Assembly (NCBI GenBank): GCA_900321275.1
Contig: ONVI01000042.1
Coordinates: 1-36,052 of the forward strand
Length of the DNA stretch: 36,052 nt
Reading direction: 5' to 3'
Origin: an uncultured Eubacteriales bacterium
Lineage (GTDB): Bacteria > Bacillota > Clostridia > Oscillospirales > Oscillospiraceae
Below are positions 6,627-26,203 of the stretch, piece by piece. The notes below the pieces were generated by a model. The model was not told the DNA's origin, made no database searches, and worked only from the letters and a program-made list of their open reading frames with translations. A program made the position numbers and the translations under genes. The stretch's first letter is position 1. Every line of letters starts with the position of its first letter.

Positions 6627-7826
6627 ATGAAAAGATTTTCTGCGATTCTGTTGCTGACGGCGCTTCTGCTCACGCTCGGCTTTGTGCCGCAGGCTGCGGC
6701 CGATGATAACACGGTGCCGGATATTGAGGCCGGTATTGCCGAAATCAAAAAGCACGGAAACATCATCCTCACCATCGGACCGGCGTCCATGATTGAGCTC
6801 GGCTACGAACCGGCCGATATCGTCTCCGTAAAGATCGGCGAGGAAGAGATGGAGATGCCGATCGGCACAAGCTATTCGGACGTTGATTCCGGCGATGCGA
6901 TCTGCTGCTTTAAACCCAGCGAATCGAAAGGCGTCGATGAGGTTGTACTGGCCATCAATGCCGGTGATCTGACGAGTACGATGGGAATCGCCGAACGCCG
7001 CGACTGCGAAGAGGCGCCCGGATACGAATGGGTATTTGCCGCCGGGATCGAGGAGCCTGTAACGGTTTTGATCTCCATGGCGGAAAAGCAGGGCTATGCG
7101 GACAGATACCTGCTGCACCAGATCAGCGGCAGCCGTACAAATGATCGCGGGGACTACGCGCATCTGAGCGACGCCGAATATGCCAATTTCCGCGCCGTGG
7201 AGACTGCCGGTATGGGAAAAGATACGCTCTTTCGTTCTTCGTCGCCCATTAACCCGGTCATCAACCGCAACAAAGAGGCGGATGAAGCGCTGCTCCGATC
7301 GGCCGGCCGGACAGTAATGAACATGGTCGACAGCGAAGCGGGCATGAAGGAATTTCCCGATTTCAGCCTGTCGTACTATTCGGGGTGCGACGTTATTGCC
7401 CTGAATATGGATATGGACTTTTTTTCCGCAGTTTTTGAAGGAAAGCTGGCAGAGGGCTTTCGCTATCTGGCCTCGCACGACGGACCGTATCTGATCCACT
7501 GCCGGGAGGGGAAGGACCGCACCGGCTTCGCGGTGGGTATTCTGGAGTGCCTGATGGGCGCGGCTGCCGATGAAGTTGTGGAAGACTATATGCTGACCTA
7601 TTATAATTACTACGGCATTGAGCCGGGAACAGAGAACTATGAGCGGATTGCCGCGGGCAATATTGTACCGTCTCTGTCCAAGGCCTTTGAAATCGAGTCA
7701 ATCCGTGCGGAGGGCGTTGATTTGCAAAGCTGCGCGGAGGCTTATCTTGAGCGCATCGGAATGAGCCGGAATGAGATAGAAATGCTGAAAAGCAAGCTCG
7801 GTGAGGACTACGGCGGACTGAGCTGA
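6627..7826 (+). CDS. Exported tyrosine-phosphatase-like protein
   Basis: A 399-residue protein with a Sec signal peptide (about 1-26, cut near AAA-DD) and a C-terminal protein tyrosine/dual-specificity phosphatase fold. The P-loop HCREGKDRTG (291-300) holds nucleophile Cys292 and Arg298 in CX5R spacing, as in the bacterial Y_phosphatase3/DSP-like enzymes that act on phosphotyrosine or phosphoinositides. Residues 43-123 (GNIILTI, then TSYSDVDSGDAI, then VVLAINAGDL) distantly resemble the C-terminal domain of SAM hydroxide adenosyltransferases; this is a weak resemblance by eye. The start ATG has GAAGGGGA upstream. The substrate is unknown. MscS follows 71 bp later with its own RBS, so the two may be co-transcribed. 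Confidence 0.8.
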   Translation: MKRFSAILLLTALLLTLGFVPQAAADDNTVPDIEAGIAEIKKHGNIILTIGPASMIELGYEPADIVSVKIGEEEMEMPIGTSYSDVDSGDAICCFKPSESKGVDEVVLAINAGDLTSTMGIAERRDCEEAPGYEWVFAAGIEEPVTVLISMAEKQGYADRYLLHQISGSRTNDRGDYAHLSDAEYANFRAVETAGMGKDTLFRSSSPINPVINRNKEADEALLRSAGRTVMNMVDSEAGMKEFPDFSLSYYSGCDVIALNMDMDFFSAVFEGKLAEGFRYLASHDGPYLIHCREGKDRTGFAVGILECLMGAAADEVVEDYMLTYYNYYGIEPGTENYERIAAGNIVPSLSKAFEIESIRAEGVDLQSCAEAYLERIGMSRNEIEMLKSKLGEDYGGLS

Positions 7827-7897
7827 TTCCCGGCGGGCGGCAAAAGAGAAAACCAATCGCCCCCGTGCGGGTGCCATCCAATCAAAGGGAGAATCGT

Positions 7898-16491: not shown

Positions 16492-17559
16492 CTATTGAAA
16501 GTTAGGGAAGCGCTGATTAAATCGGAGCGTGCGGATTGGCGAGCAGGTTTTTCGGCTGACGAAGCCTGAAAAGCGCAGGAATACTTTGTGTATTTCAAGT
16601 TTTTTGACTTCGCCGGAGCTGAGCTCTTTGATGCTGCCGTCGCCGAGACGGGTGAGAAGAGAATAGTCTTCGTCCAGCCCGACGGCGACAGCGGGAACGG
16701 GTGCTTTTCCGGGGTATAGAATATTGATCTCCTGCCCCAGAAGGAAGGAGCGCTTTTTGTATGCCTCGAAAATCGCGGGATCGTCCGGTTTCGCTGTATA
16801 ATCCATCAGTCGGTCAAGAATGGCCGCCGCAAGCCTGCAGCGTAGCTCCGGGATCTGCTCTCCGCCAAAGGCAGCGCCCGCGATCCCCTGCAGCTCCTCC
16901 GGGAAATTCCCGGCGGGGACATGTGTGTTGACACCGATGCCGATGACGACATAGCGCATCATGCCGCTTTCACAGTCCAGGCTGGCCTCGGTCAGGATGC
17001 CGCAGACCTTCCGATCGTCGATATAAACGTCGTTGACCCATTTGATCCCGGCCGTCCGACCGGACAGCTCTTCTACCGTCTCGGCAACAGCGACGGCGGC
17101 ACAGGCGGTCAGGCGCACGGCTTCCGTCGCGGGCAGGACCGGGTGCAGCAGAAGGCTCAAATAAAGGCCGCTGTCGGCGGGAGAATAGAAGCTGCGCCCC
17201 ATGCGGCCGCGGCCTGCGGTCTGCTCCCCGGCCACAAGCGCAAGACCGGCCTGCGCGCCCTCGGCCGCAAGCCCCTTGAGCACGGTGTTTGTGGAGCTGA
17301 TGATCTTATAAACCTGTATTTTGAGCTCACGGTGCCGCAGATACCGGACAATGCCATCCACGCTCAGCACATCGCTTGCCGAGTGCAGACGATAGCCGCG
17401 GTTGGGCACGGATTCAATCTCATAGCCGTCTTCCCGCAGCTTGCTGATCGACTTCCATATCGCCGTGCGGCTGACCAGAAGACAGCGGGCCAGCTCTTCA
17501 CCCGACACATAGCTGTCGGCATTCTGCCACAGGATGGCAAGCAGCTCGTCGCGCGTCAT
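16492..17559 (-). CDS. birA: Biotin-protein ligase / biotin operon repressor with a repeat-derived C-terminal tail
   Basis: A 355-residue bifunctional BirA. Residues 1-62 are a winged helix (VSRTAIWKSISKLREDGYEI) for operator binding. Residues 80-270 are the ligase domain with GRGRMGR (116-122) for biotinoyl-AMP binding and KWVND (173-177) with the catalytic lysine. Residues 275-318 are the C-terminal SH3-like domain, ending GDGSIKELSSGEV. The last 35 residues (321-355) are unlike any BirA: they are encoded by a half copy of the dispersed repeat (16506-16604) plus 14 bp of flank. ATG 17559 has GGGAGGTG upstream and overlaps the bioY stop as ATGA. The operon is under a BirA box at 18164-18196, so the protein should regulate its own gene. 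Confidence 0.9.
   Translation of the reverse strand: MTRDELLAILWQNADSYVSGEELARCLLVSRTAIWKSISKLREDGYEIESVPNRGYRLHSASDVLSVDGIVRYLRHRELKIQVYKIISSTNTVLKGLAAEGAQAGLALVAGEQTAGRGRMGRSFYSPADSGLYLSLLLHPVLPATEAVRLTACAAVAVAETVEELSGRTAGIKWVNDVYIDDRKVCGILTEASLDCESGMMRYVVIGIGVNTHVPAGNFPEELQGIAGAAFGGEQIPELRCRLAAAILDRLMDYTAKPDDPAIFEAYKKRSFLLGQEINILYPGKAPVPAVAVGLDEDYSLLTRLGDGSIKELSSGEVKKLEIHKVFLRFSGFVSRKTCSPIRTLRFNQRFPNFQ
16506..16604. repeat. Half copy of the dispersed repeat inside the 3' end of birA
   Basis: It starts GGAAGCGCTGATTAAATC (the repeat's right end in reverse complement) and continues through the GACGAAGCCTGAAAAGCG dyad arm to about 16604. There it changes to birA sequence. The other half of the repeat is missing. 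Confidence 0.75.
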
Positions 17560-18113
17560 GCGGTTCGCACCTCCCGGTCGACAAGCGGGGAAAGCCGCCG
17601 CACCAATACGACAGCCAGCGCGATCTTGGCGGCGTCCGGCAGCAGATAGGGCAGCACACACCAGGCCAGCGCCGTGCCGAGGCTGATGGGGCCTGTTTTG
17701 CGGGCATAGACATACATGAACCACGCCGTCCCAAAGGCATAGCAAACCAGAATTCCCACCGCCATCGCGCAGATCAGCACCGGGACGGAACGCCCGAACT
17801 TTTGCACCGCAAGCCCCACAATCAGCGCGGTGAACAGGAAACCGAGAATATAACCGCCTGTCGGCCCCAGCAGGACGGAGATCCCGCCCTTGAAGCCGGA
17901 GAAAACCGGCGCGCCGACCGCGCCCAGCAGAATATAGCACAGGACGGCCCACATGCCGCGCCTGAGACCCAGCAGAGCCGTGACAAGACAAACGGCAAAG
18001 GTCTGCATGGTAAAGGGCACCGTCATCGGGATCGAGATCCAGGAGCAAACGGCGATGAGTGCGACACTCATGGCGATCATGGCAATGTCGCGTGTGGAAA
18101 GCGAACGATTCAT
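17556..18113 (-). CDS. bioY: Biotin transporter substrate-binding component BioY
   Basis: A 185-residue integral membrane S-component that binds biotin and works alone or with an ECF energy-coupling module. About six hydrophobic helices are visible. The family signature region GLRRGMWAVLCYILLGAVGAP and GPTGGYILGFL is present, and the latter is the characteristic BioY motif. ATG 18113 is preceded by GGGAGGATG. It overlaps birA by 4 bp (ATGA). The promoter at 18141-18170 is overlapped by a BirA operator, so biotin availability should control both genes. No ecfA or ecfT is nearby. Confidence 0.95.
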   Translation of the reverse strand: MNRSLSTRDIAMIAMSVALIAVCSWISIPMTVPFTMQTFAVCLVTALLGLRRGMWAVLCYILLGAVGAPVFSGFKGGISVLLGPTGGYILGFLFTALIVGLAVQKFGRSVPVLICAMAVGILVCYAFGTAWFMYVYARKTGPISLGTALAWCVLPYLLPDAAKIALAVVLVRRLSPLVDREVRTA

Positions 18114-18274: not shown

Positions 18275-18312
18275 CAAAAAATCGGCGATTCCCAAAGCCG
18301 GGAATCGCCGAT
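18275..18312 (-). terminator. Terminator of nagB
   Basis: A perfect 13 bp stem pairs 18281-18293 with 18300-18312 (ATCGGCGATTCCC and its complement). On the minus strand it is followed by six U. It starts 11 nt past the nagB stop. Confidence 0.85.
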
Positions 18313-19115: not shown

Positions 19116-19144
19116 GAATGAATACTCCTTATCATTATGTTATT

Positions 19145-19281
19145 CAGTGTCGGGCAAGCCTCTGTTGCAGTTTTGATTCTGCGTTTTCCTCTTGCTCTGA
19201 CGACTCACTGCAAGCCGTGACGGCATCCGCCGAATCTTTCGATCACCGCCAACCTCGTCAACCCATTACGGTCCCGGCGCT
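19145..19281 (-). ncRNA. glmS ribozyme (GlcN6P-activated self-cleaving RNA) upstream of nagB
   Basis: Read on the minus strand, the conserved core elements appear in order. AGCGCC is the cleavage site, cut between 19281 (A) and 19280 (G). GTTGACGAGG follows a short P1, then GATCGAAAGATTCGGCGGATGCC forms the P2/P2.1 core. P3 is CGGCT...AGTCG with a loop CAGTG that pairs with CACTG at the 3' end (19149-19145) as the P3.1 pseudoknot. TCAGAGCAAG pairs with GCTTGC (P4), and AAAACGCAG pairs with CTGC before AACAGAG (P4.1). This matches the full-length architecture of the class, not a fragment. The 3' end lies about 30 nt before the nagB start codon. Confidence 0.93.
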
Positions 19282-19358
19282 AACAGACGCCCCTTAACCT
19301 CCGTGAGGAGTCTGTTTTAAAACAAAACCAATTATAGTGATTTTTAAGAAATTGTCAA
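19282..19358 (-). promoter_or_regulatory. nagB promoter and pre-ribozyme hairpin
   Basis: -35 TTGACA (19358-19353) and -10 TATAAT (19336-19331), both perfect, have a 16 bp spacer. Between the start site and the ribozyme cleavage site, AACAGAC and GTCTGTT close a hairpin (about 19316 to 19282) with an inner CCTC/GAGG stem. It abuts the cleavage site directly. Confidence 0.85.
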
Positions 19359-26114: not shown

Positions 26115-26203
26115 GGAGGGTTACCGAAGCGGTCATAACGGGGTGGTCTTGAAAACCATTAGGGGGAAACCCCACGCGGGTTCGAATCCTGCACCCTCCG
26201 CCA
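26115..26203 (+). tRNA. tRNA-Ser(UGA)
   Basis: The acceptor stem GGAGGGT pairs with ACCCTCC, then discriminator G and an encoded CCA (26201-26203). The anticodon loop CTTGAAA between TGGT and ACCA gives anticodon UGA. The long variable arm (GGGG-GAAA-CCCC) is the class II form expected for serine, and the T arm GCGGG-TTCGAAT-CCTGC is intact. Confidence 0.95.

Follow-up and report, generated by a model that had tools for sequence, protein, structure and literature searches.

The glmS ribozyme family (RF00234) is customarily, though not by definition, found in the 5' UTR of glmS. McCown et al. 2011 (RNA 17:728) reportedly counted 463 glmS ribozymes, all but two of them in glmS mRNAs; nagB may be mentioned among these two exceptions. 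Vogler et al. 1989 is said to report that an Escherichia coli glmS mutant obtains glucosamine-6-phosphate (GlcN6P) through the catabolic isomerase. According to the available portion of PMC3997798, RNase J1 of Bacillus subtilis degrades glmS mRNA once the ribozyme has cut it, the sign of control being OFF, and Bacillus mRNAs are shielded from their 5' end by a hairpin there or by a strong Shine-Dalgarno (SD) sequence, even one without a start codon. No ribozyme on nagB was found among literature titles and the opening lines of abstracts, including those pairing a ribozyme with nagB or with the enzyme name, or in the available portions of PMC2258182, PMC11602151, PMC10668854, PMC6171935 and PMC3766115. 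The locus described here departs from the customary context: in a 36,052-nt stretch of DNA from an uncultured Eubacteriales bacterium (the window), the gene downstream of the ribozyme is nagB.

Ribozyme and nagB transcription unit

The minus strand of the window has a match to RF00234 ahead of nagB (Table 1), as the first-pass annotation had proposed. This match covers the full model (positions 1-167, untruncated) and scores 61 bits (cmscan), the gathering score being 37, and it is the sole match in the genome (2.74 Mb assembly, 93% complete). The P3.1 pseudoknot partners named in that annotation are present, and the cleavage site that it gave agrees with the predicted A(-1)/G(1) position. The interval that it delimited, 19116-19358, spans the -35 hexamer to the base preceding the nagB ATG, and its spacing of about 30 nt from the ribozyme to nagB measures 27 nt.

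A leader of approximately 45 nt, counted from a presumed start site, lies between a sigma-70 type promoter and the ribozyme. It includes a hairpin (P0) with an SD-like GGAGG between its two arms. An intrinsic terminator stands directly 3' of nagB, so nagB here looks like a single-gene transcript. On its computable defining features (score, core, and helices including P3.1), this RNA is a member of the glmS ribozyme class with an uncustomary target. After nagB, the minus strand (16492-18113) encodes a BioY-like membrane protein (assigned by eye; unmatched in NCBIfam) and a BirA biotin ligase (TIGR00121). The only tRNA gene detected in the window is a tRNA-Ser (anticodon TGA; 26115-26203, plus strand).

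Table 1. Coordinates of features at the ribozyme-nagB locus of the window
Feature	Position	Strand	Basis
glmS-class ribozyme, predicted to be self-cleaving	19143..19292	-	RF00234, 61 bits, E-value 7.6e-12; covariation across 42 relatives
Sigma-70 type promoter, TTGACA-16 nt-TATAAT	19331..19358	-	Consensus agreement 12/12
P0 hairpin directly 5' of the predicted cleavage site; arms AACAGAC (19316-19310) and GTCTGTT (19288-19282)	19282..19316	-	Covarying stem
SD-like GGAGG without start codon, proposed mRNA stabiliser (STAB-SD-like)	19298..19302	-	Conserved motif
Predicted self-cleavage site, A(-1) 19281 / G(1) 19280	19280..19281	-	Placed by the conserved AGCGCC block
P3.1 pseudoknot, 5' strand CAGTG	19206..19210	-	Covarying helix
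P3.1 pseudoknot, 3' strand CACTG	19145..19149	-	Covarying helix
nagB SD, AAGGAG	19125..19130	-	Sequence
nagB, glucosamine-6-phosphate deaminase/isomerase, 263 aa	18324..19115	-	TIGR00502, 375 bits
Intrinsic terminator 3' of nagB; 14 pairs, 8 G-C, T tail	18281..18312	-	Sequence

The alignment comprises forty-two ribozyme sequences, of which 36 belong to the genus and 6 to other genera of the same family. The core blocks AGCGCC, ACGAGG and TCGAA..TCGG.GG are invariant in all 42. When the Rfam structure plus P3.1 is scored, 98.2% of cells are paired and 17 of the 33 pairs are altered on both sides. On each of five covariation measures the observed value is reached by 0/500 shuffles, with the caveat that kinship alone can let sequences exceed such shuffles even without structure. 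The P3.1 helix covaries as well: both-side changes occur in four of its five pairs and 96% of its cells are paired. With the partner shifted by one to three columns, pairing falls to 33-55%.

NagB and its operon partners

The nagB product scores 375 bits with TIGR00502, for which the cut-off is 237. D, D, H and E are kept, in the NagB of the window and in 151/152 covering stretches, at positions that we take to be catalytic. All 152 covering stretches (at least 70% identity), which are distinct although their source loci overlap in part, have Gly at the residue that aligns with E. coli Arg158; in the five solved relatives displayed, this residue is Arg. Arg158 presumably belongs to the GlcNAc6P allosteric site of E. 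coli-type NagB, and it does not define the family. The E. coli-type allosteric Arg is therefore not kept in the NagB of the window, which is consistent with an enzyme released from the catabolic signal. The same Gly is also present in a group of 70-83% identity, in which the ribozyme was not found in the loci tested. Monomeric Gram-positive NagBs are likewise without allostery, and the Akkermansia NagB is not activated by GlcNAc6P (available portions of PMC9812318 and PMC5902328, respectively). The Km of the Akkermansia enzyme for ammonium is 41 mM, and under physiological conditions it was considered incapable of amination (PMC5902328, same portion). In yeast engineering, a Pyrococcus glucosamine-6-phosphate deaminase was run in the aminating sense at high ammonium (available portion of PMC12385614).

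An acetyltransferase gene and/or glmM is found in 41/51 ribozyme loci of named genomes (described below) and in 25/39 copies from the genus. Gene order in the 51 named loci is ribozyme-nagB-acetyltransferase-glmM in 29 and ribozyme-acetyltransferase-nagB-glmM in seven; in 10, as in the window, nagB stands behind the ribozyme without either of the other two genes. The acetyltransferase (218 aa) is a left-handed beta-helix protein with Pfam hexapeptide repeats and is related to the GlmU C-terminal domain. It matched 21 PDB sequences, the best being the C-terminal part of Sulfolobus 5z09, followed by GlmU chains. The Sulfolobus protein presumably has GlcN1P acetyltransferase activity, and the operon partner is predicted to be a GlmU-like GlcN1P acetyltransferase. 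In the genome of the window, glmM and the acetyltransferase gene lie in a separate unit, where they directly follow a further, distantly related NagB-like gene (L259 1017-3958, G000:C66), the 234-aa product of which scores 144 bits against TIGR00502 and has the altered motifs TELCG and GENCHIGYNEP.

In most relatives, then, the ribozyme-led transcript is a UDP-GlcNAc operon in which nagB is joined by glmM and/or the gene for the GlmU-like acetyltransferase. Because GlmM and the acetyltransferase act between GlcN6P and UDP-GlcNAc and not in GlcNAc breakdown, this operon company points to synthesis. GlmM itself consumes GlcN6P, so a GlcN6P-repressed operon that includes glmM is not under pure synthesis control. 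That NagB here runs toward GlcN6P, with the ribozyme as product feedback, is supported indirectly by the linkage to glmM/acetyltransferase operons; feedback logic and operon company together indicate synthesis and hence an anabolic NagB.

Distribution of the ribozyme

The first-pass annotation had proposed a survey for nagB behind RF00234, and the arrangement recurs in many genomes. RF00234 matches occur in 38/101 genomes drawn from the genus (39 copies in total). A high-scoring NagB type is encoded by 57 of the 101, one as a contig-end fragment, and these include all 38 ribozyme carriers; 0/44 genus genomes without this NagB type have a match. Every one of the 39 copies was inspected: nagB belongs to the unit led by 37 of them, and none leads glmS. 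The two copies without nagB lead acetyltransferase-glmM (G088:C18) and glmM alone (G083:C124), and G083 carries a second, nagB-linked ribozyme. Twelve of the 19 genus genomes with the NagB type and no initial match were rechecked (11 loci plus G074). G045 was the one positive, its ribozyme being severed by a contig end and additional to the 38 above; the other 11 have no ribozyme within the ≤1.5 kb searched. Both the genus draw and the family draw sample larger groups, and the counts are lower bounds because stricter filters lose weak matches.

In the family draw, 45/300 genomes have a match (best score 102.5 bits). Among 40 copies inspected, glmS is the gene led in 34 and nagB in six, the six being spread over five further genera. 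Other family hits in G000, G027, G077 and G229 were examined apart, and G135 was left out. G229, from a further genus, scores below the Rfam threshold, apparently owing to a long insert; the model built here gives a full ribozyme (145 bits) upstream of its nagB. In the class draw, matches occur in 148/391 genomes, some with two. Ninety class loci (the 30 best-scoring and 60 nearly all from the low-scoring end) comprise 85 that lead glmS (15 with glmM upstream), two that lead nagB, one that leads acetyltransferase-glmM (L412) and two that are unclear.

Named genomes were scanned by NagB alignment, and a model (R1) built from the 42 sequences was applied to the best 80 of at least 586 loci. A ribozyme is found upstream of nagB in 51 of these 80. 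For 26/80 loci the title refers to a ruminant host or to a site in the ruminant gut; among the remaining 54, 37 have RUG or RUI labels, which we take to denote rumen series. Ruminococcaceae bacterium YRB3002 (L266) and Ruminococcaceae bacterium P7 (L301), neither of which is marked as a MAG or as uncultured, carry the ribozyme-nagB arrangement; both are presumably rumen isolates.

The cassette proteins of other genera are 86-98% identical to those of this genus, and in a locus from another family (L407) the values are 91%, 94% and 90%. GlmS is only 49-56% identical between genomes sharing the 86-98% cassette. These identity values weakly suggest lateral transfer of the nagB cassette.

Several loci differ in other ways. 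One of the two ribozyme-led nagB genes of the class draw, in G580 (L398 587-2917), looks broken after approximately 110 residues and is followed by a 581-aa transposase-like frame. No glmS, nagB, glmM or acetyltransferase gene is found in the 2.6 kb behind the RF00234 matches of L418 (G618) and L437 (G535), the two unclear class loci. Two RF00234 copies per genome are present in G600 (C39 2273-2521 and 3851-4098, approximately 1.3 kb apart) and G743 (C1 and C2). In L270 (22-4610), glmS is directly upstream of ribozyme-acetyltransferase-nagB-glmM on the same strand, such that the ribozyme lies between both routes. A ribozyme-led glmS in G670 (L420 454-1593, reverse complement) is without the N-terminal glutaminase domain and could encode an ammonia-dependent GlmS, and L449 (G554) has 0/3 glutaminase motifs in the 3 kb examined. 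These two loci are a further hint that the ribozyme may go with GlcN6P synthases that use ammonia.

glmS and its neighbourhood

The first-pass annotation suggested that NagB replaces or backs up GlmS. Replacement of a lost glmS does not hold as a general statement. The genome of the window has a good glmS (780 bits), and glmS is found in 39 of 50 ribozyme-nagB genomes, P7 and YRB3002 included (38 exceed the cut-off and one is a C-terminal half; the 50 genomes derive from the 51 ribozyme loci, with L294 left out). In the genus, absence of glmS shows no association with the ribozyme (7/38 with versus 15/63 without; P = 0.62, contig-end fragments being scored as present). Backing up fits these data, and parallel ammonia route fits as a better description of NagB. 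As for a ribozyme on the glmS of this genome, the gene is present and has no RF00234 match. Absence of glmS was also considered as support for NagB sufficiency and set aside, as among these incomplete assemblies it is just as frequent in one group as in the other. G229 (100% complete) has an intact ribozyme-nagB and no glmS match whatever, and G077 (94%) likewise has no glmS match; as single cases of ribozyme-nagB without glmS these are suggestive only. Some other family genomes have neither glmS nor the high-scoring NagB type.

The surroundings of glmS were compared in 21 hand-picked regions. Eighteen come from 17 ribozyme-nagB genomes; the others are from G100 (the same NagB type, no ribozyme found) and from G022 and G031 (without this NagB). 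Genes found in these regions are those for a type III glutamine synthetase (17), a second glutamine synthetase (11), an ANTAR regulator (11) and an ammonium transporter (9), together with pyrG (12), guaA (10) and gltB (9). The names pyrG, guaA, gltB, ammonium transporter and type III synthetase are putative assignments from sequence features; in the genome of the window, the glnA and ANTAR identities were confirmed by Pfam. A glutamine synthetase gene is present in 18/18 regions from ribozyme-nagB genomes and in neither G022 nor G031. In 34 control regions around ribozyme-led glmS (approximately 1 kb upstream and ≤9 kb downstream), a glutamine synthetase gene is found in 0/34 within 3 kb and in one within 5 kb. 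Across 30 genus loci, the type III gene is beside glmS in 13/14 ribozyme-positive versus 2/16 ribozyme-negative cases (P = 2e-5, a value that ignores relatedness).

Because glmS adjoins glutamine synthetase, ammonium transport, glutamate synthase and ANTAR genes in the regions examined, it appears to belong to a nitrogen-limitation set. Ammonia is abundant in the rumen. We infer that glmS serves when nitrogen is scarce and NagB when ammonia is plentiful.

ANTAR targets consist of two neighbouring hexaloop hairpins with A1 and G4 in the loop, which overlap a terminator. A scan of the glmS regions for such dual hairpins gave 19, with 4-20 in shuffles, and thus no excess. The glmS leader of this genome has a strong terminator hairpin (z -3.9) with one 7-bp AACGAC ANTAR-like hexaloop hairpin in its 5' arm. 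Nine glmS loci compared with Rfam gave sub-threshold hits only and no known element. In this genome (L036, approximately 7755-7880, minus strand), a promoter-like TTGACA/TATACT is followed by the terminator ahead of the glmS ribosome site, and the leader, beside glnA and the ANTAR regulator gene, is attenuator-like. Other terminator-like hairpins were seen by eye at the corresponding glmS-leader position in L053, L056 and L059.

The 5' element and the sign of control

The nagB-linked leaders number 91 (94 minus three duplicates; L339 and L323, in which the core is absent from the expected place, were dropped). SD-like GGAGG or AAGGAG is present in 77 of them (shuffled mean 10.3, maximum 21), and in 74 of these 77 it is 14-19 nt before the cut. 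A start codon rarely follows: ATG is found in 6/77, and any of ATG, GTG and TTG in 16/77. The 5-bp closing stem of P0 is complete in 66/91 leaders (shuffled mean 5.9, maximum 12), with covarying pair sets such as AACAG/CTGTT, AATAG/CTATT and ATCGG/CCGAT. Ahead of glmS-linked ribozymes, an SD-like motif occurs in 29/34 leaders at 21-27 nt, with ATG behind it in 16/29, and by the same measure P0 is not found there (mean stem 3.3 versus 4.1 shuffled). P0 is therefore not class-wide. The SD-like motif is common to nagB- and glmS-linked ribozymes, and so the sign of control is probably shared.

RNase J is encoded in 3/3 genomes tested (that of the window, P7 and YRB3002). P0 and the mostly start-less SD look like an mRNA stabiliser that the predicted cleavage would remove, which favours OFF. 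Since the cut would take away the protector and expose a 5'-OH, OFF is the simplest reading. In glmS-linked leaders (G286:C3, G255:C8 and G386:C1), CGCAG and GGAGGA look complementary, by eye, to CTGCG and TCCTCC directly 3' of the ribozyme; this is possibly a long-range pairing or alternative structure.

Proposed model and alternatives

Our model for this locus is the following. At low GlcN6P, P0 and the start-less SD would shield the 5' end of the full-length mRNA, and NagB would be made. Working in the aminating direction, NagB would convert fructose-6-phosphate and free ammonia to GlcN6P, which GlmM and the acetyltransferase (encoded in the nagB operon in most relatives and elsewhere in the genome here) would draw to UDP-GlcNAc. 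At high GlcN6P, self-cleavage at 19281/19280 would remove the protective 5' segment and leave a 5'-OH mRNA exposed to RNase J. The glutamine-dependent route, glmS, would lie outside ribozyme control as part of the nitrogen-limitation set. The basis of this model is the ribozyme, its linkage, the operons, the conserved 5' element and the glmS neighbourhood; from these we infer cleavage, the OFF sign, the direction of NagB and nitrogen control of glmS. We put the probability of this main reading (nagB mRNA under OFF feedback by a GlcN6P ribozyme, an aminating NagB, and glmS in a nitrogen-limitation set) at roughly two in three.

A wider reading is more tentative, and we would give it slightly less than even odds. 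Many Clostridia, many of them from the ruminant gut, would have two GlcN6P synthases chosen by nitrogen (compare AsnA/AsnB and GDH/GOGAT). One would be the ammonia-using NagB, under ribozyme feedback and encoded in a mobile nagB-acetyltransferase-glmM cassette. The other would be the glutamine-using GlmS, which would have lost the ribozyme and become part of the glutamine synthetase/ammonium transport/ANTAR set. The ribozyme would act by cutting off a 5' stabiliser made of P0 and the start-less SD.

Another explanation, which we consider unlikely, is that NagB is still catabolic and serves peptidoglycan or GlcNAc recycling via NagA, with the ribozyme clamping nagB, glmM and the acetyltransferase gene OFF, for example as a GlcN6P reserve or by reading other hexose phosphates. 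This genome does have nagA, as do many in the genus (a match in 88/101, of which 78 exceed the cut-off), and in G074, where a 79% identical NagB of the same type has no ribozyme hit, nagA is approximately 1 kb from nagB. In addition, NagB, GlmM and the acetyltransferase are all downstream of GlcN6P, most ribozyme-nagB genomes retain glmS, and amination by NagB can be weak (available portion of PMC5902328). However, a substrate that represses its own deaminase would exert positive feedback on GlcN6P, nagA and nagB are on different contigs in this genome, and the allosteric residue that answers to the catabolic signal is missing from NagB.

The remaining alternatives concern the ribozyme itself. 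It is quite improbable that cleavage is an ON switch, in which GlcN6P would free the mRNA from a 5' leader masking the nagB SD and so raise the GlcN6P-using genes. In the window, leader ACTCCT (19311-19306) is complementary by eye to AGGAGT (19129-19124), but across 42 named loci in which nagB comes first the leader/ribosome-site complement averages 4.6 versus 4.4 in shuffles, and CTCCT, ACTCC or TCTCC occurs in 1/42 leaders. The SD-like element ahead of glmS-linked ribozymes and the OFF sign through RNase J1 in B. subtilis (available portion of PMC3997798) argue against it as well. G088:C18, G083:C124 and class locus L412, in which glmM or acetyltransferase-glmM is led without nagB, would suit a ribozyme whose true target is glmM and the acetyltransferase gene (pathway feedback), with nagB an operon rider. 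This is very improbable given that nagB alone of the three is under the ribozyme in the window and in 10/51 named loci, and that 37/39 genus copies include it. That the ribozyme is a decayed remnant is extremely improbable: its 61 bits are below many glmS-linked copies, the highest score in the family being 102.5, but the core blocks are invariant in 42 relatives and compensatory changes are found in the helices and P3.1.

Comparison with known systems

If the main reading is true, the glmS ribozyme would be a GlcN6P sensor that tracks whichever enzyme makes GlcN6P and not a glmS accessory. NagB would be a natural case of a "catabolic" deaminase reversed as a regulated biosynthetic enzyme, cell-wall precursor supply would be coupled to ammonia, and this ribozyme class could switch mRNA decay through loss of a 5' stabiliser.

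The B. subtilis-type glmS ribozyme resembles the present one in its RF00234 model, core, P3.1 pseudoknot, 5' UTR position and the presence of RNase J. It differs in leading glmS, whereas the ribozyme here leads nagB (with an acetyltransferase gene and/or glmM in most relatives) and has a covarying P0 around a mostly start-less SD-like motif 5' of the cut. As in the Bacillus STAB-SD (available portion of PMC3997798), a strong SD is near the 5' end and a start codon is unnecessary; here, however, the putative stabiliser is positioned for removal by ribozyme cleavage. NagB belongs to the same family (TIGR00502) as the enzyme of catabolic nagAB operons. Unlike in those operons, nagB in this genome is not beside nagA, it is part of UDP-GlcNAc operons in relatives, and its product has Gly at the Arg158 position. 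Finally, the proposed supply of GlcN6P by NagB from fructose-6-phosphate and ammonia resembles the route of the E. coli glmS mutant; that was a laboratory mutant, whereas here it would be the wild-type, feedback-controlled state.
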